Of a stretch of DNA of 64,000 nt, positions 13,890 through 49,557 are shown in pieces. The position numbers were made by a program, and so were the translations under genes. The stretch comes from Aquisphaera giovannonii (GTDB lineage Bacteria; Planctomycetota; Planctomycetia; Isosphaerales; Isosphaeraceae), in NCBI RefSeq assembly GCF_008087625.1, contig NZ_CP042997.1:3410001-3474000 (forward strand), given 5' to 3'. Each line of letters opens with the position of its first letter. Position 1 is the stretch's first letter. The notes below the pieces were generated by a model. The model was not told where the DNA came from, made no database searches, and was given only the letters and a program-made list of their open reading frames with translations.

Positions 13890-14243
13890 GTGACACGCCT
13901 CTTCGCCGGGACGCCCTGGGACCGGCCGCCGACCTGCGACCGTTGCGGCCAGCCGGAGTCGGAGTGCCGGTGCCCGCCCGTCGTGCCGGAGCCCCTCCGG
14001 ATCCCGCCCGAGAAGCAGACCGCCCGGATCGGCGTGGAGAAGCGGCCTAAGGGGAAGGTCGTCACCGTGGTCTCCGGACTCGACCCGGCGGGGAACGACC
14101 TGGAGGGCCTGACGGCACGCCTGAAGACGTCGTGCGGCACGGGCGGGACCCTCAAGGAGGGCCAGATCGAGCTGCAGGGCGACCACGCGAAGAAGGCCGA
14201 GGGGCTGCTCCAGTCCATCGGATACAAGACCAAGCGACGCTAG
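13890..14243 (+). CDS. SUI1/YciH-like translation initiation factor family protein
   Basis: 117 residues, GTG start with GGGAG upstream. The C-terminal 80 residues carry the SUI1 (eIF1-like) core: KVVTVVSGLDPAGNDLEGLTARLKTSCGTGGTLKEGQIELQGDH, including the K-x-x-[CL]-G-x-G-G-T segment of the family. The first 30 residues hold a small Cys cluster (CDRCGQPESECRC) that could bind zinc and is absent from E. coli YciH. Bacterial members associate with the 30S subunit and affect start-codon choice, though their role is poorly defined. It ends 19 bp before cstA. Confidence 0.88.
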   Translation: MTRLFAGTPWDRPPTCDRCGQPESECRCPPVVPEPLRIPPEKQTARIGVEKRPKGKVVTVVSGLDPAGNDLEGLTARLKTSCGTGGTLKEGQIELQGDHAKKAEGLLQSIGYKTKRR

Positions 14244-14262
14244 GGTTGAGGACGACCGGCCG

Positions 14263-16452
<2,190 letters not shown>

Positions 16453-25502: not shown

Positions 25503-28500
25503 ATGGGAACAGGCTTACCGTCGCCCCAGGGGCTTTACGATCCGAGTCGCGAACACGACGGCTGCGGCGTGGGGTTCATCGTCGATCTCAAGGGGCGGAA
25601 ATCCCACGCGCTCGTCCGCGACGGCCTGACGGCCCTGGTGAACCTGGACCACCGCGGCGCCTGCGGCTGCGAGAACAACACCGGCGACGGCGCGGGGGTG
25701 CTCATCCAGATCCCCCACGAGTTCCTGGCGGAGCGGTGCCGACGCCTCGGCATCGCCCTCGGCGAGCCCGGATCCTACGGGATCGGCGCCCTCTTCGCGT
25801 CGCCGGACCCGAAGCAGCAGGCTTACGGCAAGAAGCTCTTCGAGAGGATCGTCGCCGAGGAGGGCCAGACGCTCCTCGGCTGGCGCCCCGTGAAGACGAA
25901 CAACGAGCCCCTGGGCGCCAGCGCCCGGAGCGTCGAGCCGAAGGTCCTGCACGCCGTCGTCGGCCGCTCCGCTTCCATGAAGGACGACGACGCCTTCGAG
26001 CGGAAGCTGTTCGTCATCCGCAAGCGGTTCGAATCGGCCATCGAGGACTCGGGGCTCGACGACCGCAAGTATTTCTACTTCTCCAGCCTGTCCTGCCGCA
26101 CGATCGTCTACAAGGGCATGCTGACGCCCGGCCAGGTCCGGATCTACTACGAGGACGACCTCGCCGATCCGCTCCTCAAGAGCGCGATCTGCATGTTCCA
26201 CTCGCGGTTCTCCACGAACACGTTCCCGAGCTGGGAGCTGGCGCACCCCTACCGGATGATCTCGCACAACGGGGAGATCAACACGCTCCGCGGCAACATC
26301 AACTGGATGCGGGCCCGCGAGGCCCTCTTCGCGTCTGGGTTGTATGAGCCGGGCGACATCGAGAAGATCCGCCCGATCGTCCGCGAGGGGCTCTCGGACA
26401 CGGCCTGCCTGGACAACGCCGTCGAGCTGCTCGTGCGGTCGGGGTACAGCCTGCCGCACGCCATGATGATGCTCATCCCGGAGGCCTGGGACCACCACGA
26501 GTCCATGTCCCAGGTGAAGAAGGATTTCTATCAGTACCACAGCTGCCTGATGGAGCCCTGGGACGGGCCCGCCTCCGTCGGGTTCACCGACGGCAGGAAC
26601 ATCGGCGCGGTGCTCGACCGCAACGGCCTGCGGCCCAGCCGCTACGTCGTCACCAAGGACGGCCGCGTGATCATGGCGTCCGAGGTGGGCGCCATCGAGG
26701 TCGCGCCGTCGAACGTCCTGAAGAAGGGGCGGCTCGAGCCCGGCAAGATGTTCCTCGTGGACCTCGAGGAGGGGCGGATCGTCGGCGACGAGGAGCTGAA
26801 GGAGCAGATCGCCTCGGCGAAGCCGTATGGCCAGTGGCTCCGCGAGCACATGGTCTCGCTCGCCGACCTGCCCCCCGCGCCCGAGGTCCCCGGCCCGGAC
26901 CCCAAGACGCTCCTCCAGCGCCAGCAGGCCTTCGGCTACACGCAGGAGGACCTGAAGTACATCCTCGGCCCGATGGGGTCGAGCGGCGAGGAGGCCATCG
27001 GCTCGATGGGCAACGACGCGCCGCTCGCGGTGCTCTCGGATCGGGCCCAGCCGCTGTTCAACTACTTCAAGCAGCTCTTCGCCCAGGTGACCAACCCGCC
27101 GCTCGACGCGATCCGCGAGGAGCTCGTCACCTCGGTCTTCACCGGGGCCGGAGGCGAGGGGAACCTGCTGGAGCCGAAGCCCGAGTCGTGCCGCCAGATC
27201 GCCCTGGACATGCCGGTCGTGGACAACGACGAGATGGCCAGGCTCAAGCAGCTGGAGGGCTGGCGGGGCTTCACCTCGGTCACGCTGCCGATGCTCTTCG
27301 TCGCGGCCGACGGCGCCGCGGGCATGGAGCGGGCGCTCGATGATCTCTTCGAGAAGGCGAGCCGGGCGATCGACGCCGGGGCCAGCCTGATCATCCTCTC
27401 GGACCGCGGCGTGAGCGCCGAGATGGCCGCGATCCCCTCGCTGCTGGCCTGCTCGGGCCTGCACCACCACCTGGTCCGCCGCGGCCAGCGGTCCCGCGCC
27501 GGCCTCCTGATCGAGTGCGGCGACGTCCGCGAGGTCCACCACGTCGCCCTGCTGCTCGGCTACGGCGCCGGGACGATCAACCCCTACGTCGCCTTCGAGA
27601 CCCTCGACGCGATGATCCGCGAGGGGCTCATGAAGGGCGTGGACCGCGAGGAGGCGATCTACCGCTACCGCAAGGCGATGAAGAAGGGCGTCGTGAAGGT
27701 GATGTCCAAGATGGGCATCAGCACCATCCAGAGCTACCGCGGGGCCCAGATCTTCGAGGCCATCGGCCTGAACGAGGAGTTCGTCGCCCGGTACTTCGAC
27801 AAGACGGCCTCCCGCGTCGGCGGCGTCGGCCTGGAGGAGATCGCCCGCGAGACCCTGGAGCACCACCGCCGGGCCTACGGGCTACGCGACGCCGGCCCGT
27901 CCCTCCTCGACGACGGCGGCCAGTACCAGTGGCGCCGGGACGGCGAATACCACCTGTTCAACCCCGAGACGATCTTCCGGCTCCAGCACGCCACCCAGGC
28001 CGGCCGGTACGACATCTTCAAGAAGTACACGAGCTCGGTCGACGGGCAGAACGAGCGGCTCTGCACCCTCCGCGGGCTGTTCGAGTTCCGCAGGGGCTCG
28101 CGCAAGCCGATCCCGATCGACGAGGTGGAGCCGGTCGAATCGATCGTCCGCCGGTTCGCCACGGGGGCGATGAGCTACGGCTCGATCTCCGCCGAGGCCC
28201 ACGAGACCCTGGCCATCGCCATGAACCGGCTGGGCGGGCGCTCGAACACGGGCGAGGGGGGCGAGGATCCGGAGCGGTTCCGCCCGCTGCCCAACGGGGA
28301 CAGCAAGCGGAGCGCCATCAAGCAGGTGGCGTCCGGCCGGTTCGGCGTCACGAGCGAGTACCTCGTGAACTCCGACGAGCTCCAGATCAAGATGGCGCAG
28401 GGGGCCAAGCCCGGCGAGGGCGGCCAGCTCCCCGGCCACAAGGTCTGGCCGTGGATCGCCAAGGTCCGCCACTCCACGCCGGGCGTGGGCCTCATCAGCC

Positions 28501-30074
28501 CGCCGCCGCACCACGACATCTACTCGATCGAGGACCTCGCCCAGCTCATCTTCGACCTGAAGAACAGCAACCCGAGGGCGCGGATCAGCGTGAAGCTCGT
28601 GGCCGAGGTGGGGGTCGGCACGGTCGCCGCGGGCGTGGCCAAGGCCCACAGCGACGTCGTCCTCATCAGCGGCCACGACGGCGGCACGGGAGCCAGCCCG
28701 CTGACGTCGCTCAAGCACGCCGGCGTCCCCTGGGAGCTCGGCCTGGCGGAGACCCAGCAGACGCTCGTGCTGAACAAGCTCCGCGACCGGATCGTCGTCC
28801 AGGCCGACGGCCAGATGAAGACCGGCCGCGACGTCGTCATCGCCGCCCTGCTGGGCGCCGAGGAGTACGGCTTCGCCACCGCGCCGCTGGTCGTCATGGG
28901 CTGCGTCATGATGCGGGTCTGCCACCTGGACACCTGCCCGGTCGGCATCGCCACGCAGAACCCGAAGCTCCGCGAGAAGTTCCGCGGCCAGGCCGAGCAC
29001 GTCGTCAACTTCTTCCGGTTCGTCGCCGAGGAGGTCCGCGAGCACATGGCCGCGCTGGGCTTCCGGACGATGGACGAGATGATCGGCCGCAGCGACCTGC
29101 TCGACATGCGGAAGGCGATCGACCACTACAAGGCCCGGGGCCTGGACTTCTCCAAGATCTTCTACCGGCCCGAGATGGGCCCCGACGTGGCCGTCCGCAA
29201 GGTCCGCGAGCAGGAGCACGGGCTCGACTCCACGATGGACGTGCAGACGCTCGTGCCCGACTGCGCCCCCGCGATCGACCGCGGCGAGCCGGTGACGCTC
29301 GACCTGAAGATCCGCAACGTCAACCGCACCGTCGGGACCATCCTCGGCAGCGTGGTCACCCGCAAGTACGGGTCGGCGGGCCTCCCGGAGGACACGATCC
29401 AGCTCCGCTTCAAGGGCTCCGCCGGCCAGAGCTTCGGCGCCTTCGTGCCGCGGGGCGTGACGATGACCATCGAGGGGGACTCCAACGACTACGTCGGCAA
29501 GGGGCTCTCCGGCGGCAAGATCGTCGTCGCCCCCCCGCGTGACGCGCCCTTCGTCCCCGAGGAGAACGTGATCATCGGCAACGTGGCCCTCTACGGCGCG
29601 ACCGGCGGCCAGGCCTTCTTCCGGGGCCTCGCCGGCGAGCGGTTCTGCGTCCGCAACAGCGGCGCCCAGACCGTGGTCGAGGGGACCGGCGACCACTGCT
29701 GCGAGTACATGACCGGAGGGGTCGTCGTGATCATCGGCCGGACGGGCCGCAACTTCGCCGCCGGCATGAGCGGCGGCATGGCCTTCGTCCTGGACGAGGC
29801 CGGCGACTTCCCCCGCCGCTGCAACCGCGACATGGTGGACCTCGAGCCGCTCGCCGAGCCCGAGGACATCGAGCTCGTCCGCGACCTGCTCATCCAGCAC
29901 GCCGGCTACACCGGCAGCGCCGTGGCCGCCCGGCTCCTGAAGGGCTGGGACGAGGCCGTCGGCAAGTTCGTCAAGGTGATGCCCCGCGACTATCGCCGGG
30001 CCCTCGAGGAGAGGAAGAAGGCCGAGATGGAGGCAGTCGAGGTGTCCGACCAGGTGGAGGTGACCCGTGGGTAA
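25503..30074 (+). CDS. gltB: Glutamate synthase large subunit
   Basis: 1523 residues, the usual GltB length. Glutamine + 2-oxoglutarate + reductant give two glutamates. The class II amidotransferase domain begins after a 20-residue propeptide: C21 in HDGCGVGF is the catalytic N-terminal cysteine after processing, and the amidotransferase motif [17 protein letters not shown] follows near residue 235. The central domain and the FMN-binding synthase domain ([44 protein letters not shown]) come next, then a 3Fe-4S site at C1134, C1140, C1145. The GXGXG beta-helix with repeating G-x-x-G-x-x-x-G closes the protein. The chosen ATG lies near AAAGGG. It overlaps gltD by 8 bases. Confidence 0.97.
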
Positions 30075-31548
30075 GCCGACCGGATTCATGGAGTACCCGA
30101 GGGAGCTCCCGACCCGCCGCCCCGTGGACGCGCGGCTGCACGACTACCTCGAGGTGTACGAGCCGTTCCCCGAGGACAAGCTCCGCGCCCAGGGGGCCCG
30201 GTGCATGGACTGCGGGATCCCGTTCTGCCACCAGGGCTGCCCGCTGGGCAACCTGATCCCGGACTGGAACGACCTGGTCTACAAGGACCACTGGCGGGCG
30301 GCCATCGACCGGCTGCACGCCACCAACAACTTCCCCGAGTTCACGGGCCGGCTCTGCCCCGCCCCGTGCGAGGCGTCGTGCGTCCTCGGGATCAACAACG
30401 ACCCGGTCGCCATCAAGCAGGTCGAGCTCGCGATCATCGAGCACGCCTGGGAGCAGGGCTGGGTCGCCCCCGAGCCCCCCAAGGTGAAGACCGGCAAGTC
30501 GGTGGCGGTCGTCGGCTCGGGCCCCGCGGGCCTGGCCGCCGCGCAGCAGCTCGCCAGGGCGGGCCACTCCGTCACCGTCTTCGAGCGGGCCGACCGGATC
30601 GGCGGCCTGCTCCGCTACGGGATCCCCGACTTCAAGATGGAGAAGCGGTTCCTCGACCGCCGGCTCCGCCAGATGGAGCTGGAGGGCGTCACGTTCCGCC
30701 CGGGCGTCGACGTCGGCGCGGACGTCACCGCCGGGCAGATCCTGGCGGAGTTCGACGCCGTCTGCCTCTGCGGCGGCGCGACCCAGCCTCGCGACCTGCC
30801 CATCGAGGGCCGCAACCTCGACGGCATCCTCTTCGCCATGGACTTCCTCACCGCCCAGAACCGCCGCGTGGCCGGCCTCGGCGACGGCGACGGCCGCCAC
30901 GAGCACGTGCACACGGCCGAGGGCAAGCACGTGATCATCATCGGCGGCGGCGACACCGGGGCGGACTGCCTGGGCACGTCGCACCGCCACCGCTGCAAGA
31001 GCGTCCACCAGTTCGAGATCGTCCCGCGCCCGCCCGAGAGCCGGACGCCCGCCAACCCCTGGCCGCAGTGGTCGAACGTCTTCCGGGTCTCCTCGGCGCA
31101 CGAGGAGGGCGGGGAGCGGGTCTATTCGATCAACACGCGCCGGTTCGTGGGCGAGGGGGGCCGGGTCAAGGCGCTGGAGGCGATCGAGGTCGAGATGAAG
31201 CTCGAGGACGGCCGGCCTCGGTTCGTCGAGATCCCCGGCACCGAGAAGGTCTACCCGGCGGACCTCGTGCTGCTGGCGATGGGCTTCACCGGCCCGGAGA
31301 GGAACGCGCTGCTGGAGCAGTTCGGCGTCGAGCTGGACCCCATGGGCAACGTGAAGGCCGACGCGACCAAGCGGACGAGCGTGCCGAAGGTCTTCACCGC
31401 GGGCGACATGACCCGCGGCCAGAGCCTGATCGTCTGGGCGATCGCCGAGGGCCGCCACGCCGCCCACTCGATCGACGAGTTCCTGATGGGCAGCACCCTG
31501 CTCCCCGCGCCGCTCGACTTCGGCAACCACGCCCGGCCGTTCTCCTGA
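30067..31548 (+). CDS. gltD: Glutamate synthase small subunit
   Basis: 493 residues, GTG start preceded by GGAGGTG and overlapping the gltB stop by 8 bases, so the two are translationally coupled. It passes electrons from NAD(P)H through FAD and Fe-S clusters to GltB. The N-terminal domain has the two Cys clusters for 4Fe-4S ([19 protein letters not shown] and [10 protein letters not shown]), followed by the FAD Rossmann motif [14 protein letters not shown] and the NAD(P)H motif [13 protein letters not shown], and ends in the typical [21 protein letters not shown] segment. Confidence 0.97.
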
Positions 31549-37481: not shown

Positions 37482-37800
37482 GGCGGGGTCACTCCGGAGG
37501 AGGGGGGCGACGACGACCGACGACCGCCTCGATGATACGACGGCGCAGTCGGCCCGCGATCCGGACCGAGGGGAGCGGCGTGAAATGCACGCGAGGGGGT
37601 GCTGGCATGTGACTTGCCCTAGGCATGTTTTCCGTCGTGCTCTCTCCTCACCGCAATCGTGCGACGACGACCGAAGCAGGTCACAAACCCTTTTGTTGTT
37701 ACCGCTTGAGTCAACCTAAAGGGGTCGCGGTGCGGAGCTCCGTGGGCAAAATCCGAATCGCCAGCCTGGCGTCGTGCCCATTTCTTGAAAGGACGTGCTT
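37482..37800 (+). promoter_or_regulatory. amt1 upstream region with a sigma-54-like promoter
   Basis: 319-bp region. TGGCATG (37603-37609), 4 bp, TTGC (37614-37617) has GG and GC separated by exactly 10 bp, as in sigma-54 promoters (consensus TGGCACG-N4-TTGCW); the deviations are a T for C in the -24 block and C at the last position. Just upstream lies a dyad TGCAC-N8-GTGCT (37586-37603) that resembles an NtrC half-site pair but with 8 rather than 7 bp between the arms. This predicts RpoN-dependent transcription of amt1, about 184 bp before its start. Confidence 0.55.
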
Positions 37801-39204
37801 ATGAAGCGTGCAGTGACTCCGTTTGTCCTCCTGGTGGGGCTAGCAATTCTGGGATTGGTACCCAACCTCTTCGGCGGTGAGCCGCTGCCGGCGGGCGATG
37901 CCCTGAATCCCGGTGACACGGCGTGGATGCTCACGGCTTCCGGGTTGGTGCTGCTGATGACGCCGGGCCTGTCCTTCTTCTACGGCGGCATGGTGGGGTT
38001 CAAGAACGTCGTCTCCACGATGCTCCAGAGCGTCATCGCGCTGGGCGTGATCAGCCTGCTGTGGGTGCTCGTGGGCTTCAGCCTCGCGTTCGGGCCGGAC
38101 GTCGGCGGCTACGGCCTGATCGGCAACCCGCTGACGCACTTCATGCTCAACGGGGTCGGCGACGGGACGGTGACCATGGGCGTTGGGGATGGGGCGATCA
38201 AGTTCACGGTCCCGTTCCTGATCTTCTGCATGTTCCAGCTCAAGTTCGCCATCATCACGCCGGCGCTGATCACGGGCTCGTTCGCGGAGCGCGTGCGGTT
38301 CTCCGCCTATCTGCTGTTCATGGTGCTCTTCAGCCTGGTAATCTACTGCCCGCTGGCGCACTGGACCTGGCACCCCCAGGGCATCTTCTTCAAGTGGGGC
38401 GTGAAGGACTTCGCGGGCGGGACGGTGGTGCACATGTCCGCGGGCTTCGCGGCGCTCGCCGGGGCGATCCTGCTGGGCCGTCGCAAGTCGCACCTCGCGA
38501 ATGAGGCCCACGAGGCCCACAACGTCCCGTACGTGCTCCTCGGCACCGGCATGCTGTGGTTCGGCTGGTTCGGGTTCAACGCCGGCTCGGCCCTGGGCGC
38601 CAACGGCAGCGCCGCCCTGGCCTTCGCCACCACCAACACCGCGTCGGCCTGTGCGATGCTCGCCTGGATGTTCTTCGACTGGGCGAAGGGCCGCAAGCCT
38701 TCGGCGATGGGGGCCTGCATCGGCGCCGTCGTCGGGCTGGTGGCCATCACCCCGGCGGCCGGCTTCGTCACCGTCCCGCAGAGCATCGTGATCGGGCTGG
38801 TCGCGAGCGTCATCAGCAACCTGGCCTGCCATTACAAGAGCAAGTCCACGCTGGACGACACGCTCGACGTCTTCCCTTGCCACGGCCTCGGCGGCATGGT
38901 CGGGATGGTCGCCACCGGCATCTTCGCGAAGGACGTGGGCCTCTGGTACGGCCAGACGACGACGTTCATGTACCACATGCTCGCCCTGGTCGTCGTCGCG
39001 GTCTTCGCCTTCGTCGGCTCGGTCATCCTCTACAAGCTGACGGACGTGATCATCCCGCTCCGGGTCACCGACGAGCAGGAGCACGAGGGGCTCGACCTCA
39101 GCCAGCACGGCGAGACGGCCCTGGCCGTGGGCTCGTTCCTCAACGGCACCAGCAACGGCCACAGCCCGAAGGCCGATTCGATCCCGGTCGAGGCGCTCGC
39201 GTAA
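37801..39204 (+). CDS. amt: Ammonium transporter (amt1)
   Basis: 467 residues, a trimeric Amt/Rh-family ammonium channel. A cleavable-looking signal segment (MKRAVTPFVLLVGLAILGLVPN) precedes about 11 transmembrane helices. The twin pore histidines are H211 (VVHMSAGFAALAGA) and H361 (CHGLGGMVGM). Early helix GMVGFKNVVSTMLQSVIALGVIS and the LKFAIITPALITGSFAERVRF segment are characteristic. The C-terminal tail (TDVIIPLRVTDEQEHEGLDLSQHGE) is the region expected to contact P-II. AAAGGA lies 8 nt before the ATG; a GTG two codons earlier was rejected. A hairpin terminator follows at 39256-39293. Confidence 0.95.
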   Translation: MKRAVTPFVLLVGLAILGLVPNLFGGEPLPAGDALNPGDTAWMLTASGLVLLMTPGLSFFYGGMVGFKNVVSTMLQSVIALGVISLLWVLVGFSLAFGPDVGGYGLIGNPLTHFMLNGVGDGTVTMGVGDGAIKFTVPFLIFCMFQLKFAIITPALITGSFAERVRFSAYLLFMVLFSLVIYCPLAHWTWHPQGIFFKWGVKDFAGGTVVHMSAGFAALAGAILLGRRKSHLANEAHEAHNVPYVLLGTGMLWFGWFGFNAGSALGANGSAALAFATTNTASACAMLAWMFFDWAKGRKPSAMGACIGAVVGLVAITPAAGFVTVPQSIVIGLVASVISNLACHYKSKSTLDDTLDVFPCHGLGGMVGMVATGIFAKDVGLWYGQTTTFMYHMLALVVVAVFAFVGSVILYKLTDVIIPLRVTDEQEHEGLDLSQHGETALAVGSFLNGTSNGHSPKADSIPVEALA

Positions 39205-39255
39205 GCCCGGACCGGCCGCTCGACCCGCCGGTCGCCCACATGTGGTGAATGCCTC

Positions 39256-39293
39256 GGCTCGGGCCGTCCAGACATGGGCGGCCCGAGCCATTT
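39256..39293 (+). terminator. amt1 terminator
   Basis: Perfect 11-bp stem (GGCTCGGGCCG at 39256-39266 with CGGCCCGAGCC at 39279-39289) and then ATTTC. A strong hairpin 52 bp after the amt1 stop codon. Confidence 0.7.
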
Positions 39294-39561
39294 CACGCGC
39301 CTGCCGAATGGTTGGCCCGCGACGGAGCGGGACGCATCCGCTTCCCGCGATTCTTGTCCCCCAAAACGAGCCGGAGCTCACGGGAGCCGAAGGCGATGGG
39401 CATTCGTCGGCCGGGTCGCCGTCGACCGGCCTCGAACCGCATGGCGACGCGGAGCGGGGCGTCACGGGCTGCCGGGCGGGATTAGCCCGAACGGACCGAT
39501 GGCGCCATCCTGGAATCAGGCCGCCGGCTCGGGGCCGCTCCCGGCGCCTCCGCGGGCGGTG

Positions 39562-39648
39562 TCAGGAGAGCGCGAAGACGGTCGCCGCGACCGCCAGGAA
39601 CAGGAGCACTTCCTTGATGACCTCATTGCCCTTGTCTCGCGGATTCAT
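39562..39648 (-). CDS. Candidate 28-residue single-pass membrane peptide
   Basis: 28 codons ending in TGA: a charged N-terminus (MNPRDKGNEVIKE) and one hydrophobic helix (VLLFLAVAATVFALS). Third codon positions are mostly G or C as in the neighbouring genes, and GAGG lies 11-14 nt upstream of the ATG. The gene lies between the two amt genes on the strand of amt2, but beyond that gene's terminator. It may be a regulatory micropeptide of the Amt or P-II complex (inference) or a chance frame. Confidence 0.4.
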   Translation of the reverse strand: MNPRDKGNEVIKEVLLFLAVAATVFALS

Positions 39649-39863
39649 CGTGATGCGTCCTCAAATCTGCGGCGGCCGTGGCGAAGCGATATGGTTGCGA
39701 TCCAATCAGGAACGAACGGCCTGCTATTAAGAAAACCACATGCCGGTGCATGGACGGCAGGAGACCGAAGAGAGATGTCCAACCGAAGAATCTATGCCTT
39801 TTGGACTTGCGGCAGGCGAATCGATCGACATTTTGATCGCTCCGCGGATCTCGCCCCGTGGCT

Positions 39864-39883
39864 TTTCCGCAAAATTGCGGAAA
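39864..39883. repeat. Palindrome TTTCCGCAA-AA-TTGCGGAAA
   Basis: A 9-bp perfect inverted repeat with a 2-bp centre. It has the size and symmetry of an operator for a dimeric regulator; no T-run follows. It stands in the low-GC part of the amt1-amt2 gap, far from any annotated start. Confidence 0.5.
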
Positions 39884-40021
39884 CACTCGGCACGGGTGGC
39901 GAGAAACGATGCACGAGCCGAGCGGCGGGCAATGTGCCCGTGGTGCCGATTCGATCGCCACCGGTGGGTGGTTACCGGGACCGTTGACGCCCCGGAGCAA
40001 CTCGGAACACGAGCAACGCAA

Positions 40022-40057
40022 GAAAGAGGGCGGCCCGCCTGACGACGGGCCGCCCTC
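40022..40057 (-). terminator. amt2 terminator
   Basis: Perfect 12-bp stem (GAGGGCGGCCCG with CGGGCCGCCCTC, loop of 8), followed on the minus strand by TTTCTT. It lies 37 bp after the amt2 stop codon. Confidence 0.85.
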
Positions 40058-40093
40058 GAATTGACTACCAACGATTTCGCGTCCGCGTCGCCG

Positions 40094-41818
40094 TCACGCG
40101 TGATGGACGGGGGCCTTGGTCTCGGCCTTCCCGAGGCTGCTCGGCACGCCCGGGCCGTGGGTCGAGATGTGCTCGGCCCCGGCGTTCTTGACGATGATCG
40201 GATCCTCGTTGACGTAACCGAGCACGCCCATCTCGGGGATGTCGAGGCCCTCAATCTCGTCCTTCGCCGGGACGCGATTGCCGATGGTCTTCTCGATGAC
40301 GAAGAAGCTGATGTAGGCGACGGGGAAGACCCAGAGGACGTTCGCGGCGACGCCGATCGCCTGGGCCGTCAGCTGCCCGACGCCGCCTCCGTAGAAGAGG
40401 CCCAGCGGAGCCTTGTCCGCGACGCCGTTCCACCCGGCGCCATACTTCCCGTCGGCGAAGAGGCCGATCATGAGGCAGCCGAAGGCGCCGCAGACGCCGT
40501 GCACGCTGATCGCACCGACCGGATCGTCCAGCTTGAGCACCCGCTCCACGAAGAGGACGCTCCAGATCACCAGTACGCCCGCGATCCCGCCGATGATCAC
40601 CGCGGTGATCGGGTTGACGAATGCGCAAGGGGCCGTGATCGCCACCAGCCCGGCCAGCAGGCCGTTGCAGGCCATCGTGGGGTCGGGCTTGCCGAAGACC
40701 ATCCACATGTAAGTCTGGGCCGTCATGAACCCGGCCGAGCCGGCGAGCATCGTGCAGACGCAGACGCTCGCAATCCGCCCGTCGGCCAGGGCCAGCGTGC
40801 TGCCGCCGTTGAAACCGAACCAGCCGAAGGCGAGGATCAGGGTCCCCAGCACGACCATGGCGATGTTATGGCCGGGGATCGCGTTGGCCGAGCCGTCCTT
40901 GTTGAACTTGCCGATGCGAGGGCCCAGGATGATGGCGCCGGCCAGGGCGGTCACGCCGCCGGTCATGTGCACGACCGAGGAGCCCGCGAAGTCGATGTGG
41001 CCGTTGCCCAGGCCGAAGTTCACGCCCAGGTCGGCCAGCCAGCCGCCGCCCCAGACCCAGCACCCGTAGACGGGGTAGATCAGCATCGAGAGGACGAAGC
41101 CGTACGCGACGAAGGCGGAGAACTTCCAACGCTCCGCCAGGGCGCCCGTGGGGATCGTGGCGGTGGTGTCCATGAACACCATCTGGAAGAGGAACAGCGT
41201 GAGCACCGACATGTCGTTCGCGTCGCCGGCCAGGAAGAAGCCCGAGTACCCCAGCACCTCGAAGGGCTTCCCGAAGAGCTCGAACTTGACCATGTTGTGC
41301 AGGATGTCCGGGCCGTTCATCACGCCGATCGGGCCGAACCCGCCCATCTGGAGGGCGAACCCGCAGATGAAGTAGCCGAGCATGCCGATGCCGTAGATGG
41401 CGATGTTCATGGCCATCGTGTGGGCCACGTTCTTGGCCCGGCACAGCCCGGTCTCGACGAGTGCGAAGCCGGCCTGCATGAACATGACGAGGAAGCCGGC
41501 GATCAGGGCCCAGAGCATGTTCCCGTTGATCTTCAGCATGGCCACGTCGCGGGTGACCGTGTCCAGGCTCGACTTGCCGTCGGCCAGCGTCAGCGCCCCC
41601 GTCGTGCCGGCGCCCGTGTAGTTGCCGGTCGAGTCGGGCGACGCCGCGGGTTTCGTCACGTCGGGGGCCGCGGGGGCGGCGGGCGCAGGCGTGGTGGCCG
41701 CCGGCGCATCCGGCGCCTGCCCCTTCGCGGCGGGCGCCCCGTTCCAGAGCGTGACCAGGCCGAACCATCCGAACATCGCCAGTCCGAGGACCAGCCGTCG
41801 GGAGAGGGGACGCTTCAT
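40094..41818 (-). CDS. amt: Ammonium transporter with a long Pro/Ala-rich N-terminus (amt2)
   Basis: 574 residues. A signal peptide (MKRPLSRRLVLGLAMFGWFGL) is followed by a Pro/Ala-rich stretch of about 70 residues, then about 11 helices of the Amt fold. Pore histidines are H284 (VVHMTGGVTALAGA) and H440 (VHGVCGAFG). The family segment GAIILGPRIGKFNKDG and the FGWFGFNGGSTLALADGRIA motif are clear. The C-terminal tail NRVPAKDEIEGLDIPEMGVLGY matches the P-II binding region of Amt proteins. It is only moderately similar to amt1, so the two are distinct paralogues with possibly different affinities or sensing roles. It is divergent from the P-II gene. Confidence 0.95.
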   Translation of the reverse strand: MKRPLSRRLVLGLAMFGWFGLVTLWNGAPAAKGQAPDAPAATTPAPAAPAAPDVTKPAASPDSTGNYTGAGTTGALTLADGKSSLDTVTRDVAMLKINGNMLWALIAGFLVMFMQAGFALVETGLCRAKNVAHTMAMNIAIYGIGMLGYFICGFALQMGGFGPIGVMNGPDILHNMVKFELFGKPFEVLGYSGFFLAGDANDMSVLTLFLFQMVFMDTTATIPTGALAERWKFSAFVAYGFVLSMLIYPVYGCWVWGGGWLADLGVNFGLGNGHIDFAGSSVVHMTGGVTALAGAIILGPRIGKFNKDGSANAIPGHNIAMVVLGTLILAFGWFGFNGGSTLALADGRIASVCVCTMLAGSAGFMTAQTYMWMVFGKPDPTMACNGLLAGLVAITAPCAFVNPITAVIIGGIAGVLVIWSVLFVERVLKLDDPVGAISVHGVCGAFGCLMIGLFADGKYGAGWNGVADKAPLGLFYGGGVGQLTAQAIGVAANVLWVFPVAYISFFVIEKTIGNRVPAKDEIEGLDIPEMGVLGYVNEDPIIVKNAGAEHISTHGPGVPSSLGKAETKAPVHHA

Positions 41819-42580
41819 CTGCTGATTTCTCCTCGAGGATGAAATGATCAGGATTGTCGCGACTCTCGAGCGGCTCGAGATGACGACGTCGCACGTGCCG
41901 GCTGCGCCGCGATGTCACGACGGCGGGCTGTGGGATGACGTCGCGGCGCCGTAACCCCGTGCACCCTAGAGGAAACGGCGTGCCAGCCCCGCGCCGGCGG
42001 GCCGGCGGGGGGATCAAATTCCACATAAACCATTGGACAATAGTCGCTTGCGTACAAATCCGTGGGCACGGGAGGGGGCCCACCCGCGATCCGGGCCACG
42101 GGGGCGGGGGGCGATGTGCCCGCCTCTCCGGCACGGGTGTCAAGATTCTGGGCGTTGCGGAGCCCGGGCCAGGTCCCGCGGGGCAGCAATTCATTGAAAA
42201 AACCATCTCTCGATCCGATGTACACACGCTCATGCTTCGCAAGTTTGGATCGGTGTCCGTGGGCCCGTAGCCTCGCGCGGACGGGGCCGTCCGCTCGTTT
42301 CGGAGGGGTTCGTCCGGGGGAGGCGCGGGCACCCCTCGGCGGCGGCCTGCTCGCCGCGCACGCCGCATCGTTTCGCGGCACGGGACCTGCTATGCGAGGT
42401 GGGTCGATGCCCCGTGCCGGCATCGCTCAGCGGCATACCGGGGCGACGAATCGCTCGCCGCACACCGCGACTCGACATCGGCTGAGCTCCGCCCGAGCTT
42501 CCCGCGAGATGCCCCGCGCCGCCCCCGCCGATTCCATCCCGTGCCCTCGCGCGACCGCATCCTGGAGATGATGTACGACC
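41819..42580. promoter_or_regulatory. Divergent regulatory region of amt2 and the P-II gene with two sigma-54-like sites
   Basis: 762 bp, partly AT-rich. On the plus strand CGGCACG (42376-42382), 4 bp, CTGCT (42387-42391): GG and GC are 10 bp apart, two mismatches to TGGCACG-N4-TTGCT, 191 bp before the P-II start. On the minus strand TGGCACG (41985 to 41979), 4 bp, TTCC (41974 to 41971): a perfect -24 block but CC in place of the -12 GC, about 150 bp before amt2. Longer frames here have no support. Confidence 0.5.
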
Positions 42581-42928
42581 ATGAAATTGATCATCGCGAT
42601 CATCCAGCCGGACAAGTTGGAATCGATCCAGAAGGCGTTGACGGACGTCGAGGTCTTCAGGCTAACCGTAATCGATGCGCAGGGTTTCGGCCGGCAACTC
42701 GGCTACACCGAGATCTATCGGGGCCATGAGTACCGCGTGAACCTGCTGAAGAAGATCCAGATCGAGATCGCCGTGAACGAGCACTTCGTCCAGCCGACGA
42801 TCGACGCCATCATCGCCGGCGGACGCACCGAGCCGGACGGCAAGATCGGGGATGGGAAGATCTTCGTGCTGCCCCTCGAGGAATGCATCCGGATCCGCAC
42901 GGGCGAGCGCGGGTCGGACGCCATCTGA
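42581..42928 (+). CDS. glnK: P-II nitrogen regulatory protein
   Basis: 115 residues, the usual P-II size (112 plus a short tail). All three loops are readable: the T-loop GFGRQLGYTEIYRGHEYRVN has the modifiable tyrosine at residue 51, with His at 49 where most P-II proteins have Ala; the B-loop is GRTEPDGKIGDGKIFVLP; the C-loop is IRIRTGERGSDAI. P-II senses 2-oxoglutarate and ATP/ADP and blocks Amt channels by inserting the T-loop. Divergent from amt2 and 112 bp before the antiporter gene; the proximity to two amt genes supports a GlnK role. Confidence 0.95.
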   Translation: MKLIIAIIQPDKLESIQKALTDVEVFRLTVIDAQGFGRQLGYTEIYRGHEYRVNLLKKIQIEIAVNEHFVQPTIDAIIAGGRTEPDGKIGDGKIFVLPLEECIRIRTGERGSDAI

Positions 42929-43040
42929 GGACGGATCCCTTCCCGGTCCCGACGGGCCCGCCGCACCTCGACGGAGGCCGGCCCCTCGCCTCGAGGGCCT
43001 CACGCGGCGGTCAGCACAAACCCGGAGAGTCTCCCCCGTG

Positions 43041-44549
43041 ATGCGACGCGCCCGCAGTCCGTTCCCCGCGGGATGGCTGCTCTCGATCCTGCTGGCCGTG
43101 TTAGCCACCTGGCCGCAGCCGGCCCGGGGCCAATCGGAGGCCGCCGGCCTCACCAAGGAGGCGGCGGTCGCCGAGGAGGCGCGGGGCGGGGGCGGGGTCG
43201 GGCCCGCGGCGGACGCCGGGGCGCACGACGACCCGATCGCTCCCGTGCTGCTCGGCGTCATCGTCATCATCCTGGCCGCGAGGCTGGGCGGCCATGTGTT
43301 CGAGGTGCTGAAGCAGCCTCCGGTCCTGGGCGAGCTCGTGGTCGGAGTCGTCCTTGGGAATCTATCGCTCCTGGGCTACCACGGCCTCGACTTCCTCAAG
43401 GTGGTGGAGGGAGCGGGCCCCGCGACCATAGGCGTCGACGACCACCTCCGGATCGCGGGCATCTCGATCGATCACCTGGCGAGGATCGGCATCATCCTGC
43501 TGCTCTTCCAGGTGGGCCTCGAGGCGAACCTGGCCGACTTCCGACGCGTCGGCCTCTCGGCCTTCCGCGTGGCCGTCCTGGGGGTGGTGGCGCCCATGGT
43601 CCTGGGCTTCGGCGTGGGGGCCGTCCTCCTGCCGGACCGGGGGTGGCCGGTGCACCTGTTCCTCGGCGCCGCGCTCAGCGCGACGAGCGTCGGGATCACG
43701 GCGAGGGTGCTGCGGGACCTCGGGCGTGCGACGAGCCCCGAGTCGCAGATCGTCCTGGGGGCGGCCGTCATCGACGACGTCCTCGGCCTTCTCGTCCTCT
43801 CCGTCGTCCAGGGGATCGTCTTCTCGATGGGGTCGGCGTCCGGAGGCGTCCGCGAGGGGTTCGGGCTCATGAGCCTGGTCCTCATCGTGGCCAAGGCCTG
43901 CGGCTTCCTGGTCGGCGCCCTGGTGCTCGGGCAGTTCGTGAGCCGCACGGTGTTCAAGGCCGCGAGCTACCTCCAGGGGAGCGGGATGCTGACGGTCACG
44001 GCGCTGGCGATCTGCTTCTTCTTCTCCTGGATCGCCTCCCGAATGGGGCTGGCGCCCATCGTGGGCGCCTTCGCCGCCGGCCTGATCCTGGAGAAGGTCC
44101 AGTATCGGGAGCTGGCGGAGCGGCACGAGCGGAAGGAGCTGGAGGAGCTGATCCGCCCCCTCGCGGACCTCCTGGTGCCGATCTTCTTCGTGATGATGGG
44201 CCTCCAGGTGGACCTCCGGAGCCTCTCCGACCCCTCGGTCCTCGGCCTCGCCGCGGTCCTGTTCGTCGCGGCCGTCGTCGGCAAGCAGGTCTGCGCCTAC
44301 GGGGCATTGGAGGGCGGACTCGACCGGCTGAGTATCGGCGTGGGGATGATCCCGAGGGGGGAGGTCGGGCTCATCTTCGCCGCGATCGGCCGGCAGTTGC
44401 AGCTCAACGGGAAGAGCGTGGTGGACGAGGGGACCTATTCCGCGCTCGTCCTGGTCGTCATGGCGACGACCCTGGTGACGCCGCCCTTGCTCAAGTTCAC
44501 GCTGCAGCGATTCGCCGCGAGATCCGGCGCCGTCCCGGCCTCGGGCTGA
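43041..44549 (+). CDS. CPA2-family cation/proton antiporter
   Basis: 502 residues. It starts with a signal-peptide-like segment (PFPAGWLLSILLAVLATWPQ) and a Gly/Glu-rich link, then about 12 helices of the Na+/H+ exchanger domain: LLGVIVIILAARLGGHVFEVLKQPPVLGELVVGVVLGN, IGIILLLFQVGLEANLADF, GAALSATSVGITARVL, GAAVIDDVLGLL (the conserved Asp pair of the transport site), AFAAGLILEKVQY and FFVMMGLQVDL. No C-terminal RCK/TrkA domain, so it is KefB-like only in the transport part. It lies after the P-II gene and may be cotranscribed with it; it could relieve proton or cation stress during ammonium use (inference). Confidence 0.9.
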   Translation: MRRARSPFPAGWLLSILLAVLATWPQPARGQSEAAGLTKEAAVAEEARGGGGVGPAADAGAHDDPIAPVLLGVIVIILAARLGGHVFEVLKQPPVLGELVVGVVLGNLSLLGYHGLDFLKVVEGAGPATIGVDDHLRIAGISIDHLARIGIILLLFQVGLEANLADFRRVGLSAFRVAVLGVVAPMVLGFGVGAVLLPDRGWPVHLFLGAALSATSVGITARVLRDLGRATSPESQIVLGAAVIDDVLGLLVLSVVQGIVFSMGSASGGVREGFGLMSLVLIVAKACGFLVGALVLGQFVSRTVFKAASYLQGSGMLTVTALAICFFFSWIASRMGLAPIVGAFAAGLILEKVQYRELAERHERKELEELIRPLADLLVPIFFVMMGLQVDLRSLSDPSVLGLAAVLFVAAVVGKQVCAYGALEGGLDRLSIGVGMIPRGEVGLIFAAIGRQLQLNGKSVVDEGTYSALVLVVMATTLVTPPLLKFTLQRFAARSGAVPASG

Positions 44550-44574
44550 AGGGGCGACCTTGCCCCTTGGGACG

Positions 44575-44619
44575 AAGAAAGGCCCCGCCTCGCCCCATCG
44601 AAGCGGGGCGGGCGGGGCC
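44575..44619 (-). terminator. Terminator of the beta-barrel porin gene
   Basis: Stem GGCCCCGCC/GGCGGGGCC extended by CGCCCC/GGGGCG with one bulged T, and TTTCTT next on the minus strand. A shorter hairpin (AAGGGGC/GCCCCTT, 44549-44568) directly after the antiporter stop may serve the opposite strand. Confidence 0.7.
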
Positions 44620-44636
44620 GGAAATCGACGCCTAGA

Positions 44637-46295
44637 TCAGAAGATGAAGATCGCGTCCACGGCCAGGGTGAGCTGCGAGAAGCGGGTGTTGTTGCTGTAG
44701 GACGGGTGGAACTGAGACCAGTCGTACCGGGCCTCGGGGCGGATCCAGAGCCAGTCGTGCGGCTTGATCTGGCAGCCGAGGGTCTGCTCGTAGTAGGTGT
44801 CGCCCACGAGCAGGCCGGTGCGGGCCCCGTTCGTGTCCCAGAACACCTCCGACCGCCACACACCCATGAACTTGTCGCTGAACGAGTACAGGAACCAGTT
44901 GCCGAAGCTGTACCAGGTCTCCTGCTTCGCCTTGGCGTTCTGGACGACGCCGTTGACGATCGGTGAGCCGAGGCCGGGGACGTCCCGCTCCCAGCCCTGG
45001 TCGGTCTCCAGGACCTGCGTCAGCTTGTCGTTCCACTTGTGCGTGAGCACGGTGGTGAACAGGGTGCGATCATTCCGCTTGTAGCCCGGGTTGTTCAGGC
45101 CGGCGACGGACGGGATGTTGACGTAACCCGTCGGGTAGATCTGCTGGTTGGCCGGCAGGAAGCTGGGGTACTGGTTCGGCCCCCACACGCAGGTGAACGC
45201 CATGCTGGTCTTGTCGTCCTTGGACGTCCAGGAGAAGCCGCCGATGTACCCCCAGATATAGCGGTCATTGATCCAGCGGTCCCAGCCGTTGATCGTGCCG
45301 TTGTAGAGGTTGATCTTCTCGGTCAGGTGCAGCGTGGAGAGCATACCGACGTGGGTGAACGGCTGGCCGTAGTTGAACATGTACGGCACCGAGAGGAGCG
45401 GCCGACCGACGGCCGGCACGACTTCATATCCCGCGATCGTGTACCAGCGTCCTCCCTTGATGTCGAGGCCGCCCTTGGTGAGGATCGGCAGGTGGACCTC
45501 GCCGTAGAGCTGGGCCATGTCATATCCGGAGAACTGCCCCGGCCGGAAGGCGCCGTTGAACAGCCCCTGCATGTAGTTGAACTGCCAGTCGTTGCCGAAC
45601 AGGTTGTCGATCCGGAAGCCCCAATTGACGTTGTCCTCCTGCTTCAGCGGCTTCTCCAGGATGAGGTAGTACTGATTCCCCATCCATGAATTCGCCTTGA
45701 AGTTCGGGTTGACGCCGAAGTTGAAGCCGTTGCCGAAGCCGTTGGTGTTCCCGGTGTAGCTGTTCTGGATCCAGCCGTAGACCTTCCAGTCGGAATCCTG
45801 GGGCGCGTCCAGGAACTTCATCAGGAGGCCGCGCGTATCCTTCTTCTCCTCCTCCGCCTTGGCCTCCTCGCCCTCGGCCGCGGAGGTCGTCGGCTCGCCG
45901 CCCCCGAAGGCCCGCTCCGCGGCGGGCAGGCTGTAGTCGGTGGTGTTCGAGCCCGGCGTGCCCGGCTCGGCGTTGACCGCGGCGTCCGTCGACGCCGGCG
46001 GCTGCGTGGCCGGGGCGCTCGGCTGGGCCTCGATCACCGGCGGCTGGGGCGCCGACTCCGCCGCGGGGGCCTGGACGGTACGGACCGCACGGTCCATCAG
46101 TCCGTGACTGCCCGGCAGGTATCCCGGCTTCCCGCCGACATTCCCGAATGGAACCTCCCGCCTCGACGATGTCGAGGTGCTTCCATGTGAGCCGTCGGCG
46201 GCGCCACCCTGACCCCGGACGTATCCCGTGCTTACGCAGACCAGGAGGGCGATCGTCGCCCCGCCGGAGAATCCCTTACACCGCGGAGATCTCAT
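44637..46295 (-). CDS. Outer-membrane beta-barrel porin-like protein
   Basis: 552 residues from the ATG at 46295 (GGGGAGGAG just upstream). Signal peptide to about VRGQ, then about 120 residues rich in Pro/Ala/Ser/Glu with low complexity, and a C-terminal 390-residue region of amphipathic beta-strands (DSDWKVYGWIQNSYTGNT..., NQYYLILEKPLKQEDNVNWGFRIDNLFGNDW, WLWIRPEARYDWSQFHPSYS) ending in FIF, the terminal aromatic typical of outer-membrane barrels. It resembles the BBP2/OmpL-like porins of planctomycetes. Placed between the antiporter and glutamine synthetase genes, it may admit ammonium or other small solutes (inference). Confidence 0.8.
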   Translation of the reverse strand: MRSPRCKGFSGGATIALLVCVSTGYVRGQGGAADGSHGSTSTSSRREVPFGNVGGKPGYLPGSHGLMDRAVRTVQAPAAESAPQPPVIEAQPSAPATQPPASTDAAVNAEPGTPGSNTTDYSLPAAERAFGGGEPTTSAAEGEEAKAEEEKKDTRGLLMKFLDAPQDSDWKVYGWIQNSYTGNTNGFGNGFNFGVNPNFKANSWMGNQYYLILEKPLKQEDNVNWGFRIDNLFGNDWQFNYMQGLFNGAFRPGQFSGYDMAQLYGEVHLPILTKGGLDIKGGRWYTIAGYEVVPAVGRPLLSVPYMFNYGQPFTHVGMLSTLHLTEKINLYNGTINGWDRWINDRYIWGYIGGFSWTSKDDKTSMAFTCVWGPNQYPSFLPANQQIYPTGYVNIPSVAGLNNPGYKRNDRTLFTTVLTHKWNDKLTQVLETDQGWERDVPGLGSPIVNGVVQNAKAKQETWYSFGNWFLYSFSDKFMGVWRSEVFWDTNGARTGLLVGDTYYEQTLGCQIKPHDWLWIRPEARYDWSQFHPSYSNNTRFSQLTLAVDAIFIF

Positions 46296-46808
46296 CCTGA
46301 GCTCCTCCCCGTACTTACCTTCGATGATCCATTGAAACATCAGGCGACCTGATACGAGCGATCCCTCTTAGCCGCGCACCGCATTCGGAGCCGGCCCCTT
46401 CGCTGGTCCGGACGGTCTTTTCATTCCGCTGATTCGCCCGACGAGTGGGCACCGCCCTCCGCTTCCATGGACACGCCAACACCCCGCGAGCCGCGGGGTG
46501 GAGCCGGACCTACTTGTCCGACCTCCACCGATTCGGTTCCCGATCGAGCCGCCTTCGGAGAGGACACGGCGCTCGAAATTGTCACGAATGAGATCGGATG
46601 CCGGGCCTTGTCAATTGAAGGGATTCCCCGCAAGAGGATGAAAGGGAAAGCCCTGGCGGTAGGATGGGAAAGCCTTGCGGGTGCGGAGATGCCGAGGATG
46701 CCGGACACGAACGAAAAGGCCCTCCCCCGACGACGGATCTCGGGAGAGGGCCCACTCAATGCCCACGGGCGAGGCCGGCGGATCGGCCTCGGATAGCGGA
46801 CCGGATCT
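46296..46808. other. 513-bp gap between the porin and glutamine synthetase genes
   Basis: Holds the terminator of glutamine synthetase (46714-46752), a short palindrome ATCAGG-CGA-CCTGAT-like element at 46339-46353 about 45 bp upstream of the porin start, and presumably the porin promoter. Open frames here (46467-46796 plus, 46421-46759 minus) are not supported. Confidence 0.45.
46714..46752 (-). terminator. Glutamine synthetase terminator
   Basis: GGCCCTCTCCCG (46752-46741, minus strand) pairs with CGGGGGAGGGCC (46729-46718) with an 11-nt loop; TTTT follows. It lies about 55 bp after the glutamine synthetase stop. Confidence 0.85.
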
Positions 46809-48995
46809 TTACTTGATGAACAGCATCTCCTGGTAGGTCGGCAGCGGCCAGAGGTCGTCGGCCACGATGGTCTCCAGCTTGTCGCCCGCGGCCCGGACGG
46901 CGTTCATCGCGGGGATGACGACGTCGCGGGAGTGCTTGGCGTGCTCGAGCGACCCGCCGGCGGACGTCTCCTCGATGGCGTCGGAGAGCTTGTCGACGGC
47001 CGACTGGAGCTCGTCGATCCCGGCGACGAGCTCGGAGAGGTGCGCCGACTGGCCCTTCGGGACGGTGATGCCGCTGTTCTTCAGGTTGGCGATCGAGCCC
47101 GCGACCTCGGCCTGATAGCGCAGCGCGGCGGGTAGGATCTGCCGCTGGGCGATCTGGAGGGTCAACTGGGTCTCGATGTTGATCGTCTTGTGGTAGCCCT
47201 CGAGGAAGATCTCGTAGCGGGAGTGCAGCTCGCGCTCGGAGAGGACGCCGTACTTCGTGAACAGGCCGATCGACTTCGGCGAGACCAGGTCGGGGAGGCT
47301 GTCGATGGTGCTCTTGCGGTTGGGGAGGCCGCGCTTCTCCGCCTCCTGGTGCCACGCCTCGCTGTAGTTGTCGCCGTTGAAGAGGACCGCCTTGCTGTCC
47401 TTGATGGCCGCCTGGAGCAGCTTCTGGATCTCGGCGTTGAGGTCCTTCTTCTCGGCGACGGCCTTCTCGAGGGTCGTGGCGAACTCGTCGAGGGCCTCGG
47501 CGACGATCGTGTTGAGGACGACGATGGGGCCGGCGATCGACTGGGCGGAGCCGCAGGCGCGGAACTCGAACTTGTTCCCCGTGAAGGCGAACGGGCTGGT
47601 CCGGTTGCGGTCGCCGGCGTCGCGGGGGAGCGTCGGCAGGACGGTGACGCCGATCTTCATCTCGCCGCCGGCCTTGGCGGACTTGGCGCCGCCGGCCTCG
47701 ATCTGGTCGACGATGTCCTGGAGCATGTCGCCCAGGAAGATCGAGATGATGGCCGGCGGGGCCTCGTTGGCGCCGAGCCGGTGGTCGTTGCCGGCGTGGG
47801 CGACGGCGACGCGGAGCAGGTCGGCGTGCTTGTGGACCGCCTTGATGACGGCCACCAGGAAGATCAGGAACTGGGCGTTCTGGTGCGGGGTGTCGCCCGG
47901 CTTGAGGAGGTTGTTGCCCAGGTCGTCGGACATCGACCAGTTCAGGTGCTTGCCCGAGCCGTTGACGCCGGCGAAGGGCTTCTCGTGGAGCAGGAGCTGG
48001 AGGCCGTAGCGGTCGGCCACCCGCTTCATGGTCTCCATGACCAGCATGTTGTGGTCGGTCGCGACGTTCGCGTTCTCGAAGATCGGGGCGATCTCATACT
48101 GGGCCGGGGAGACCTCGTTGTGGCGGGTCTTCACCGGGACGCCCAGCTTGTAGAGCTCGGTCTCGGTCTCGAGCATGCAGGCCAGGACCCGCTCCGGGAT
48201 GGCGCCGAAGTAGTGGTCCTCCATCTCCTGCCCCTTGGGGGGCTTGGCGCCGAAGAGGGTCCGCCCGGCGTTCATCAGGTCGGGGCGGTTGTAGTAGAAG
48301 TTCTTGTCGATGAGGAAGTATTCCTGCTCCGGGCCGGCCGTGGTGAACACGGTGCTGGCGTGGGAGCCGAACAGCCGGAGGATGCGGAGGGCCTGCTTGG
48401 AGAGGACCTCGACGGAGCGGAGCAGGGGGGTCTTCTTGTCCAGGGCCTCGCCGGTCCAGGAGCAGAAGGCCGTCGGGATGCAGAGCGTCGTGCCGTTGGG
48501 GTTCTCGAGGATGAAGGCCGGGCTCGTCGGGTCCCACGCGGTGTAGCCGCGGGCCTCGAAGGTGGCGCGGATGCCCCCGGAGGGGAAGCTCGAGGCGTCG
48601 GGCTCGCCGCGGATGAGCTCCTTGCCGCCGAACTCGGCGATCGCCCCGCCGCCCTCGGTGGGGGTCAGGAACGAGTCGTGCTTCTCGGCCGTCAGGCCGG
48701 TCATCGGCTGGAACCAGTGGGTATAGTGCGTGGCCCCGCGCTCGATGGCCCAGTCCTTCATCGCCGCGGCCACCACGTCGGCCACGGACGCGTCCAGGGC
48801 CACGCCCTTGCGCAGGGTCTCGCGGATCGCCTTGTAGACGTTCTCCGGCAGCCGGGCCCTCATCTGGTCATCCGAGAAGACGTTGCTGCCGAAGAGCTGG
48901 CGGATCGTCGTCGTGGTCTTCGGGGCCCGGCGGCCCGTGGCCGGCCAGTTGGTCACCGATTCGATCGCAGCTTGTCTCGCCCGTGCGTGTTCCAT
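46809..48995 (-). CDS. glnN: Type III glutamine synthetase
   Basis: 728 residues, the length of GSIII and much longer than GSI (about 450-470). The start [14 protein letters not shown] follows CCAGGAG. Family signatures: [23 protein letters not shown] at about 35-57, [52 protein letters not shown] (ammonia-binding and active-site loop), [23 protein letters not shown] and [15 protein letters not shown]. The C-terminal about 250 residues are the GSIII-specific extension. Glutamate + NH3 + ATP give glutamine; it is the entry enzyme for the ammonium imported by the Amt proteins, feeding gltBD. No GlnA (type I) is seen here. Confidence 0.97.
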
Positions 48996-49557
48996 GGAAT
49001 GGCTCCTGGATTCAGGGAATCGTGAGGATCCGCCGCGTCTGTGCCCCGGGGCACCCCGCGCCCTCATCCGGCCCCGCCGGCCGGACCGATCGGCGGCCGC
49101 CGGGACGGACCCGGCACCCGCTCGTCCGCCGGGGGAGGGGAGAGGGCGTTGCGATATCAATATGCACACATGACGCGGTCGCAGGAAGTACCGATCTTGT
49201 CGGAAAGCCTTTCCACTCGGCCCGCATCCCTCGGCGTCCGCGCCGGCCTCGCCGGGTGGCGAGGGGACGCCGGATTGACCGGAGGGACCCGACCGATCGA
49301 GAACCAGGCTCGCGAAAGGAGCGGACACGCCGCGAAAGGGCGTTTCGGCCAGGGCCGGATGCGGCCCACGTCCGTCATGCGCACGCCGCGGATCGTACCG
49401 TCGATTCGTCTCAGCGCGGGAGAGAACGCCGATCCTGGGATCGTGGTCATCGACCGCTCGCGCATCGAGCGGCCTCGAGGTCCCATTCTCGAAGTTTCAG
49501 AGTATATCGTGCGAATCATGGATTCGCCAGACCCCACGGGGGCCCGGATGTCCCGAT
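48996..49557. other. Intergenic region upstream of glutamine synthetase
   Basis: 562 bp, with low-GC spots near 49150-49200 and 49495-49520. It should carry the glutamine synthetase promoter. I looked for a sigma-54 element on the minus strand like those of amt1 and the P-II gene and did not find one. No supported gene. Confidence 0.35.
49549..49557. repeat. Left copy of the 9-bp target duplication
   Basis: TGTCCCGAT directly before the left inverted repeat; identical copy at 51088-51096. Confidence 0.85.

Follow-up and report, generated by a model that had tools for sequence, protein, structure and literature searches.

A conserved porin-Amt neighbourhood and a putative two-membrane ammonium route in Aquisphaera giovannonii

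The route by which ammonium passes the outer membrane when it is scarce is seldom asked about, and a gene island in Aquisphaera giovannonii, a planctomycete of the family Isosphaeraceae, brings the question up. The window analyzed here is a stretch of 64,000 nucleotides (contig NZ_CP042997.1, positions 3,410,001 to 3,474,000) from a genome of 10.5 Mb in 3 contigs. It contains genes for two ammonium channels of different subtypes (AmtA and AmtB), a P-II protein, a NapA-like antiporter, an outer-membrane barrel with the BBP2 domain, glutamine synthetase type III (GSIII), and glutamate synthase (GOGAT). A first-pass annotation of the letters alone had placed the Amts, P-II, antiporter, barrel, and GSIII within approximately 11 kb, and each gene was verified by its family profile. 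The annotation regarded the antiporter and the barrel as non-standard partners, and proposed that a single unit serves the entry of ammonium through both membranes and the proton or ion balance that follows. With a probability of about 0.6, we read the island as a module that scavenges and assimilates ammonium and extends over both membranes, with the antiporter as a lineage-specific gene outside the core. Ammonium would enter through the BBP2 porin in the outer membrane and then pass the inner membrane by way of the two Amt channels, which P-II would gate; GSIII and GOGAT would fix the incoming ammonium, and the antiporter may be co-transcribed with P-II.

The genome contained only two PF00909 matches, AmtA and AmtB, and its sole BBP2 and GSIII_N matches were also located in the island; therefore, the clustering of these genes exceeds chance (profile search of the 10.5 Mb). 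Amt and BBP2 genes were then searched for in 48 genomes, 24 of which belong to Isosphaeraceae. BBP2 was rare (0–4 copies per genome), and was found within 5 kb of an Amt gene in 18 of the 23 Isosphaeraceae genomes with both families, compared with 0.13 expected under random placement, a figure that disregards shared ancestry. For comparison, insertion-class P-II lay within 5 kb of an Amt gene in 7 of 23 genomes. Split Amt matches were merged in six genomes (G049, G055, G076, G077, G092, and G095), and the P-II links of weaker classes are lower bounds. The order of the genes varied, including BBP2-AmtA in Paludisphaera soli (L057 and L106), BBP2-AmtB-P-II in Tautonia sociabilis (L021 and L083), and BBP2-P-II-AmtA in G013 (L104), and the BBP2-Amt link therefore survives rearrangement. 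GSIII_N was detected within 7 kb of an Amt gene in 9 of the 20 Isosphaeraceae genomes with both (hand count), and gltBD was located next to BBP2-AmtA-GSIII in L106, L111, L112, and L113. Within Isosphaeraceae, the BBP2 barrel is thus a true partner of the Amts, and its description as a non-standard partner was wrong for this family. The idea of one unit for two-membrane entry was supported for the barrel, whose block also includes GSIII and GOGAT in several genomes, and was not supported for the antiporter. Scattering among relatives, which the annotation had named as evidence against its idea, was true of the antiporter and untrue of the barrel.

The barrel gene (44637..46295, minus strand) matched PF07642 at 177.6 bits (cut-off, 26.2; E 5.1e-52). 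Its AlphaFold model, of moderate confidence, predicted 16 strands (mean predicted local distance difference test score, 58.6; predicted template modelling score, 0.62), with residues 1–155 scoring below 50, and the nearest PDB folds were porins such as DcaP, OprP, BpsOmp38, and PorB. From its profile match and model, the protein is a predicted BBP2 outer-membrane porin. TorF-type porins, which are said to adjoin glnK-amtB in some proteobacteria, are likewise outer-membrane barrels near Amt and P-II genes, although of a different barrel family. In the one search made of the available literature, no paper joining porin, amtB, and TorF was found. As far as could be judged from the available text, the only directly relevant literature found was a study of the anammox planctomycete Kuenenia stuttgartiensis, in which the BBP2 porin KSMBR1_3177 was highly upregulated under ammonium limitation, and the authors proposed that ammonium flows in through it (PMC7438415). 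The two barrels share the BBP2 domain, a link to ammonium, and a proposed ammonium influx; however, the link in Kuenenia comes from expression and that in Aquisphaera from neighbourhood, and they are likened by the shared domain and not by orthology. The gene neighbourhood, together with this one published expression result, suggests that the island barrel may pass ammonium and may be made under nitrogen limitation. A term search of the main text of a 2023 review on ammonium transporters in prokaryotes gave no hit for "porin" or for "outer membrane" (PMC10433425).

The other BBP2 copies of the family bear on the solute. The 24 Isosphaeraceae genomes harbored 43 copies, of which 19 were within 6 kb of an Amt gene, 11 were within 6 kb of a UT-type urea transporter gene, and 13 were near neither (the gene lists of 11 of these 13 were inspected by eye; split urea-transporter matches were merged in G009, G018, G027, and G040). 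The urea-linked copies hint that the solutes of BBP2 barrels are small nitrogen compounds. BBP2 barrels edge clusters of urease and UT urea-transporter genes in L148 (5580–12920), L149, L150, and L151 (the same as L073). The L148 cluster reads BBP2, ureD, ureG, ureF, ureC, ureB, ureA, and UT (checked with Pfam), and the urease genes were verified in both L148 and L073. A Porin_O_P match (13892–15589) was also present past the urea transporter in L148. These copies would also suit a barrel in the island that admits urea or an amide, and that is located near Amt genes because the same enzymes handle urea nitrogen. This is very improbable, as the BBP2 tree mostly separated the two sets: 16 Amt-linked Isosphaeraceae rows formed one group (95/92) and three urea-linked rows formed another (100/100), although a fourth urea-linked row was closer to the Amt group, the unlinked rows were scattered, and the tree program flagged long branches. 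Furthermore, the only urea transporter match in the host genome is 6.28 Mb away from its BBP2 gene.

AmtA (37801..39204, plus strand) and AmtB (40094..41818, minus strand, with an N-terminal extension) scored 387.3 and 374.6 bits against PF00909 (cut-off, 23.2; E 1.2e-115 for AmtA), and 419.5 and 383.7 bits against TIGR00836 (cut-off, 343.3). Among solved structures, AmtA resembled 2b2f, its best match, which we take to be Archaeoglobus fulgidus Amt-1, and E. coli AmtB, whereas AmtB was nearer to the "marine subtype" and best matched the chains 6eu6 and 8qj3. The motifs DFAG..VVH, HG, and FGWFGFN were kept in both alignments, as were the twin His, conserved Asp, and Phe gate, which presumably have their pore roles in these proteins, and both tails ended in EGLD or GLD (all by eye). 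Both are predicted ammonium channels. Amt matches were also observed within open frames of approximately 1260–1310 codons in G048, G052, G068, G071, G080, and G092, perhaps Amt-sensor fusions.

The P-II gene (42581..42928, plus strand) encodes 115 residues and scored 89.3 bits against PF00543 (cut-off, 25; E 2.3e-25). Alignment to solved P-II proteins revealed a three-residue B-loop insert before GKIGDGKIF and retention of the GRQ, YRG, GKIGDGKIF, and RIRTGE motifs, which we assume to act in nucleotide and 2-oxoglutarate binding. The protein missed the NCBIfam equivalog cut-offs for GlnK and GlnB (111.2 vs. 181 and 110.3 vs. 202 bits), and is accordingly classed, on its profile scores, as a P-II protein that is an equivalog of neither. 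A Tyr occupied the T-loop position in the window P-II, in A. insulae, and in L037, and another residue was found in 39 of 42 rows (by eye); T-loop Tyr51 is presumably the P-II uridylylation site. P-II family matches were present in 97 of 99 genomes, and the class with at least 60% identity came from 10 of 11 families, with family f2 as the exception. The possibility that the island P-II is a diverged P-II-like protein that partners the antiporter, and not an Amt regulator, was rejected because its 115-residue class spans those 10 families with or without an adjoining Amt gene. The genome holds three PF00543 matches, the other two being far off (C1:9654283-9654627 and C1:1713973-1714248); one of these belongs to the insertion class, carries Val in place of the T-loop Tyr, and has no Amt gene next to it, and the other is divergent. 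In G001, a genome of the same genus, the P-II copy (L015, 5799–6128) lacked five B-loop residues. Pairs of glnK and amtB occur in bacteria and archaea. The island is similar in encoding P-II and Amt together with sigma-54-like sites upstream, and its P-II may gate the two Amts. It differs in having two convergent Amt subtypes, a P-II with a B-loop insert, and porin, GSIII, and GOGAT genes in the block, as well as in the low frequency, given above, with which insertion-class P-II accompanies Amt in Isosphaeraceae.

Sigma-54-like -24/-12 sites were scored with our own scheme based on a consensus sequence (maximum, 15.2; threshold, 13). Such sites precede AmtA (TGGCATGTGACTTGCC, 37603..37618, plus strand, score 14.0, identical in A. 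insulae), AmtB (TGGCACGCCGTTTCCT, 41970..41985, minus strand, score 13.2, near-identical at a similar place in A. insulae), and P-II (CGGCACGGGACCTGCT, 42376..42391, plus strand, score 13.2, with a counterpart of 13.7 in A. insulae); these are three of the eight sites that reached the threshold on both strands of the window. Across loci, such sites were located upstream of AmtA in 13 of 24 cases, AmtB in 5 of 11, P-II in 5 of 44, and control genes in 1 of 111, in a table that omits matches starting past query residue 150, upstream stretches shorter than 250 bases, and 11 duplicate loci. The host genome encodes sigma-54 (PF04552), and no consensus sigma-70 site was found within 37400–49800. The Amts and P-II therefore look nitrogen-controlled, as far as promoter-like sequences can indicate. 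No site scoring 13 was found upstream of BBP2, GSIII, the antiporter, or gltB in the window, and across loci there were none for the antiporter (0/5, only two rows being the close homologue) or gltB (0/8).

A number of observations weigh against a dedicated ammonium role for the barrel. Neighbourhood is not the same as function, and the count of 18 in 23 genomes is inflated by shared ancestry. The link was missing in five of the 23 (G009, G010, G017, G020, and G027), with the Amt matches of G017 and G020 located near contig starts, and 13 of the 43 BBP2 copies were unlinked to either transporter. Sites scoring 13 or more preceded BBP2 in 1 of 49 loci and GSIII in 0 of 12, and because these sites are missing, shared regulation of the barrel and GSIII with the Amts is unsupported. 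Amt-linked and urea-linked copies could not be told apart by the net charge of the barrel, which was thus uninformative. Outside Isosphaeraceae, the link is sporadic: it was found in just 3 of 19 genomes with both families, and at 4 of 40 BBP2 loci hand-picked from a phylum-wide search (L191, L197, L201, and L203), with none among the 16 loci of family f52. The 40 loci were usually one per genome (G096 twice), and in L195 the queries missed the barrel itself. In favor of the module, groups of P-II, Amt, and BBP2 genes recur in other families (L197, L201, and L203), and at least three further non-Isosphaeraceae genomes carried BBP2 beside P-II. A scan of named genomes, with many short contigs, found Amt in the examined flank of 16 of 43 BBP2 loci.

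Taken together, the lack of a promoter type shared with the Amts, the ordinary 16-strand porin fold, the unlinked copies, and the partial synteny of the surrounding block in Isosphaeraceae, through which shared ancestry inflates the count, would suit a general porin that merely happens to be encoded within a conserved set of nitrogen genes, with no part in ammonium entry. We consider this unlikely, since the BBP2-Amt pair persists while order and strand change between genera, BBP2 is rare, a second BBP2 set is near urea genes, and the induction data from Kuenenia are independent. Two further barrel loci were recorded. Contigs titled as Candidatus Kuenenia stuttgartiensis metagenome-assembled genomes (L074, L075, and L079) harbored BBP2 that was 54–56% identical to the Isosphaeraceae barrel, and these titles may stem from a mistake in binning or naming. 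In L069 (3720–8979), a BBP2 gene with no Amt gene in the flank has a Porin_O_P match on one side and another Na_H_Exchanger gene on the other.

The antiporter (43041..44549, plus strand; 43041 is the best start, but not certain) scored 217.2 bits against PF00999 (cut-off, 26.2; E 4.2e-64) and missed the cut-off of the CPA2 subfamily TIGR00932 (167.1 vs. 238.3). Thermus NapA (4bwz) was its best solved match, with the Asp-Asp motif VIDD and the lysine region GK kept in the alignment, residues that we take to serve the ion site. It is a predicted NapA-like CPA2 cation:proton antiporter that differs from Thermus NapA in its signal-like N-terminus and its place behind P-II. As the first-pass annotation stated, it directly follows P-II, on the same strand after a 112 bp gap, and the arrangement is similar in A. 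insulae. No forward terminator was found between the two genes, and the antiporter may thus ride on the P-II transcript. This plausible co-transcription favors a single unit under P-II control that would comprise the two Amts, P-II, the barrel, and the antiporter, the last of which would balance protons or ions after ammonium entry. Distant exchangers (26–38% identical) also occurred 1.5–4.4 kb from an insertion-class P-II in 3 of 40 regions (L026, L045, and L049), which may count against the antiporter as a newcomer. Nevertheless, such a unit is improbable. Among 99 genomes, a close homologue was located beside P-II only in the host and A. insulae (G002), in agreement with its description as a non-standard partner, and G001 has the BBP2, P-II, and AmtB set without it. 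Eight genomes of family f2 carry a homologue elsewhere (the G081 copy is 49% identical, with a stop), and P-II, Amt, BBP2, and GSIII matches were not found in these regions (L095–L102, 16–17 kb). Close homologues (E <= 1e-75) were identified in 20 of 392 sampled Planctomycetota genomes, host included, and P-II or Amt accompanied none of 20 non-own loci in the examined flanks, mostly of 1.5 kb each side. In addition, NapA-type exchange carries protons inward, and the idea of proton balance is supported by adjacency alone.

In the antiporter tree, the two Aquisphaera rows were sister to G418 of family f2 (99/96) and far from the group that holds the NapA-like paralogues of Isosphaeraceae; A. insulae also retains one of these paralogues. 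The antiporter was thus probably gained laterally, with losses in other lineages as the alternative, and its distribution suggests that it is most likely a lineage-specific insertion between P-II and the porin, outside the core module.

The genes of the island are split over four strand blocks (AmtA, plus; AmtB, minus; P-II and antiporter, plus; barrel and GSIII, minus), and therefore do not form one operon. The two Amts had been called divergent-type; their genes are convergent. GSIII (46809..48995, minus strand) contains the N-terminal (PF12437), catalytic (PF00120), and C-terminal (PF18318) domains. The codons at 37801 (AmtA) and 48995 (GSIII) are both ATG, and the start of GSIII is uncertain (48956–49328) because the ATG at 48995 is not conserved in A. 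insulae (by eye). Upstream of GSIII, a block at 49420–49530 showed strong conservation in A. insulae; in a search for a conserved RNA element there, no Rfam match reached the gathering threshold within 24000–56000. The gltB gene (25569..30074, plus strand; PF00310, PF01645, PF04898, and PF01493) encodes the large subunit of glutamate synthase, and gltD (30088..31548, plus strand; PF14691 and PF07992), named from its position behind gltB, encodes the small subunit. They end approximately 6.2 kb upstream of AmtA, in agreement with the 6 kb first given for GOGAT.

The island is mostly an ordinary ammonium-assimilation cluster, to which the barrel is an informative addition and the antiporter a distraction. 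It is possible, and we propose it only tentatively, that the BBP2 barrels of Isosphaeraceae are outer-membrane channels specialized for small nitrogen solutes, one set for ammonium and another for urea, which would provide planctomycetes with a two-membrane route for scavenging ammonium, and that the antiporter of Aquisphaera was laterally gained and came under the P-II promoter. Because a rare barrel tracks the Amt genes through one family, and a second set is located near urea-transporter genes, the passage of scarce ammonium through the outer membrane becomes a question that a single gene deletion can test.

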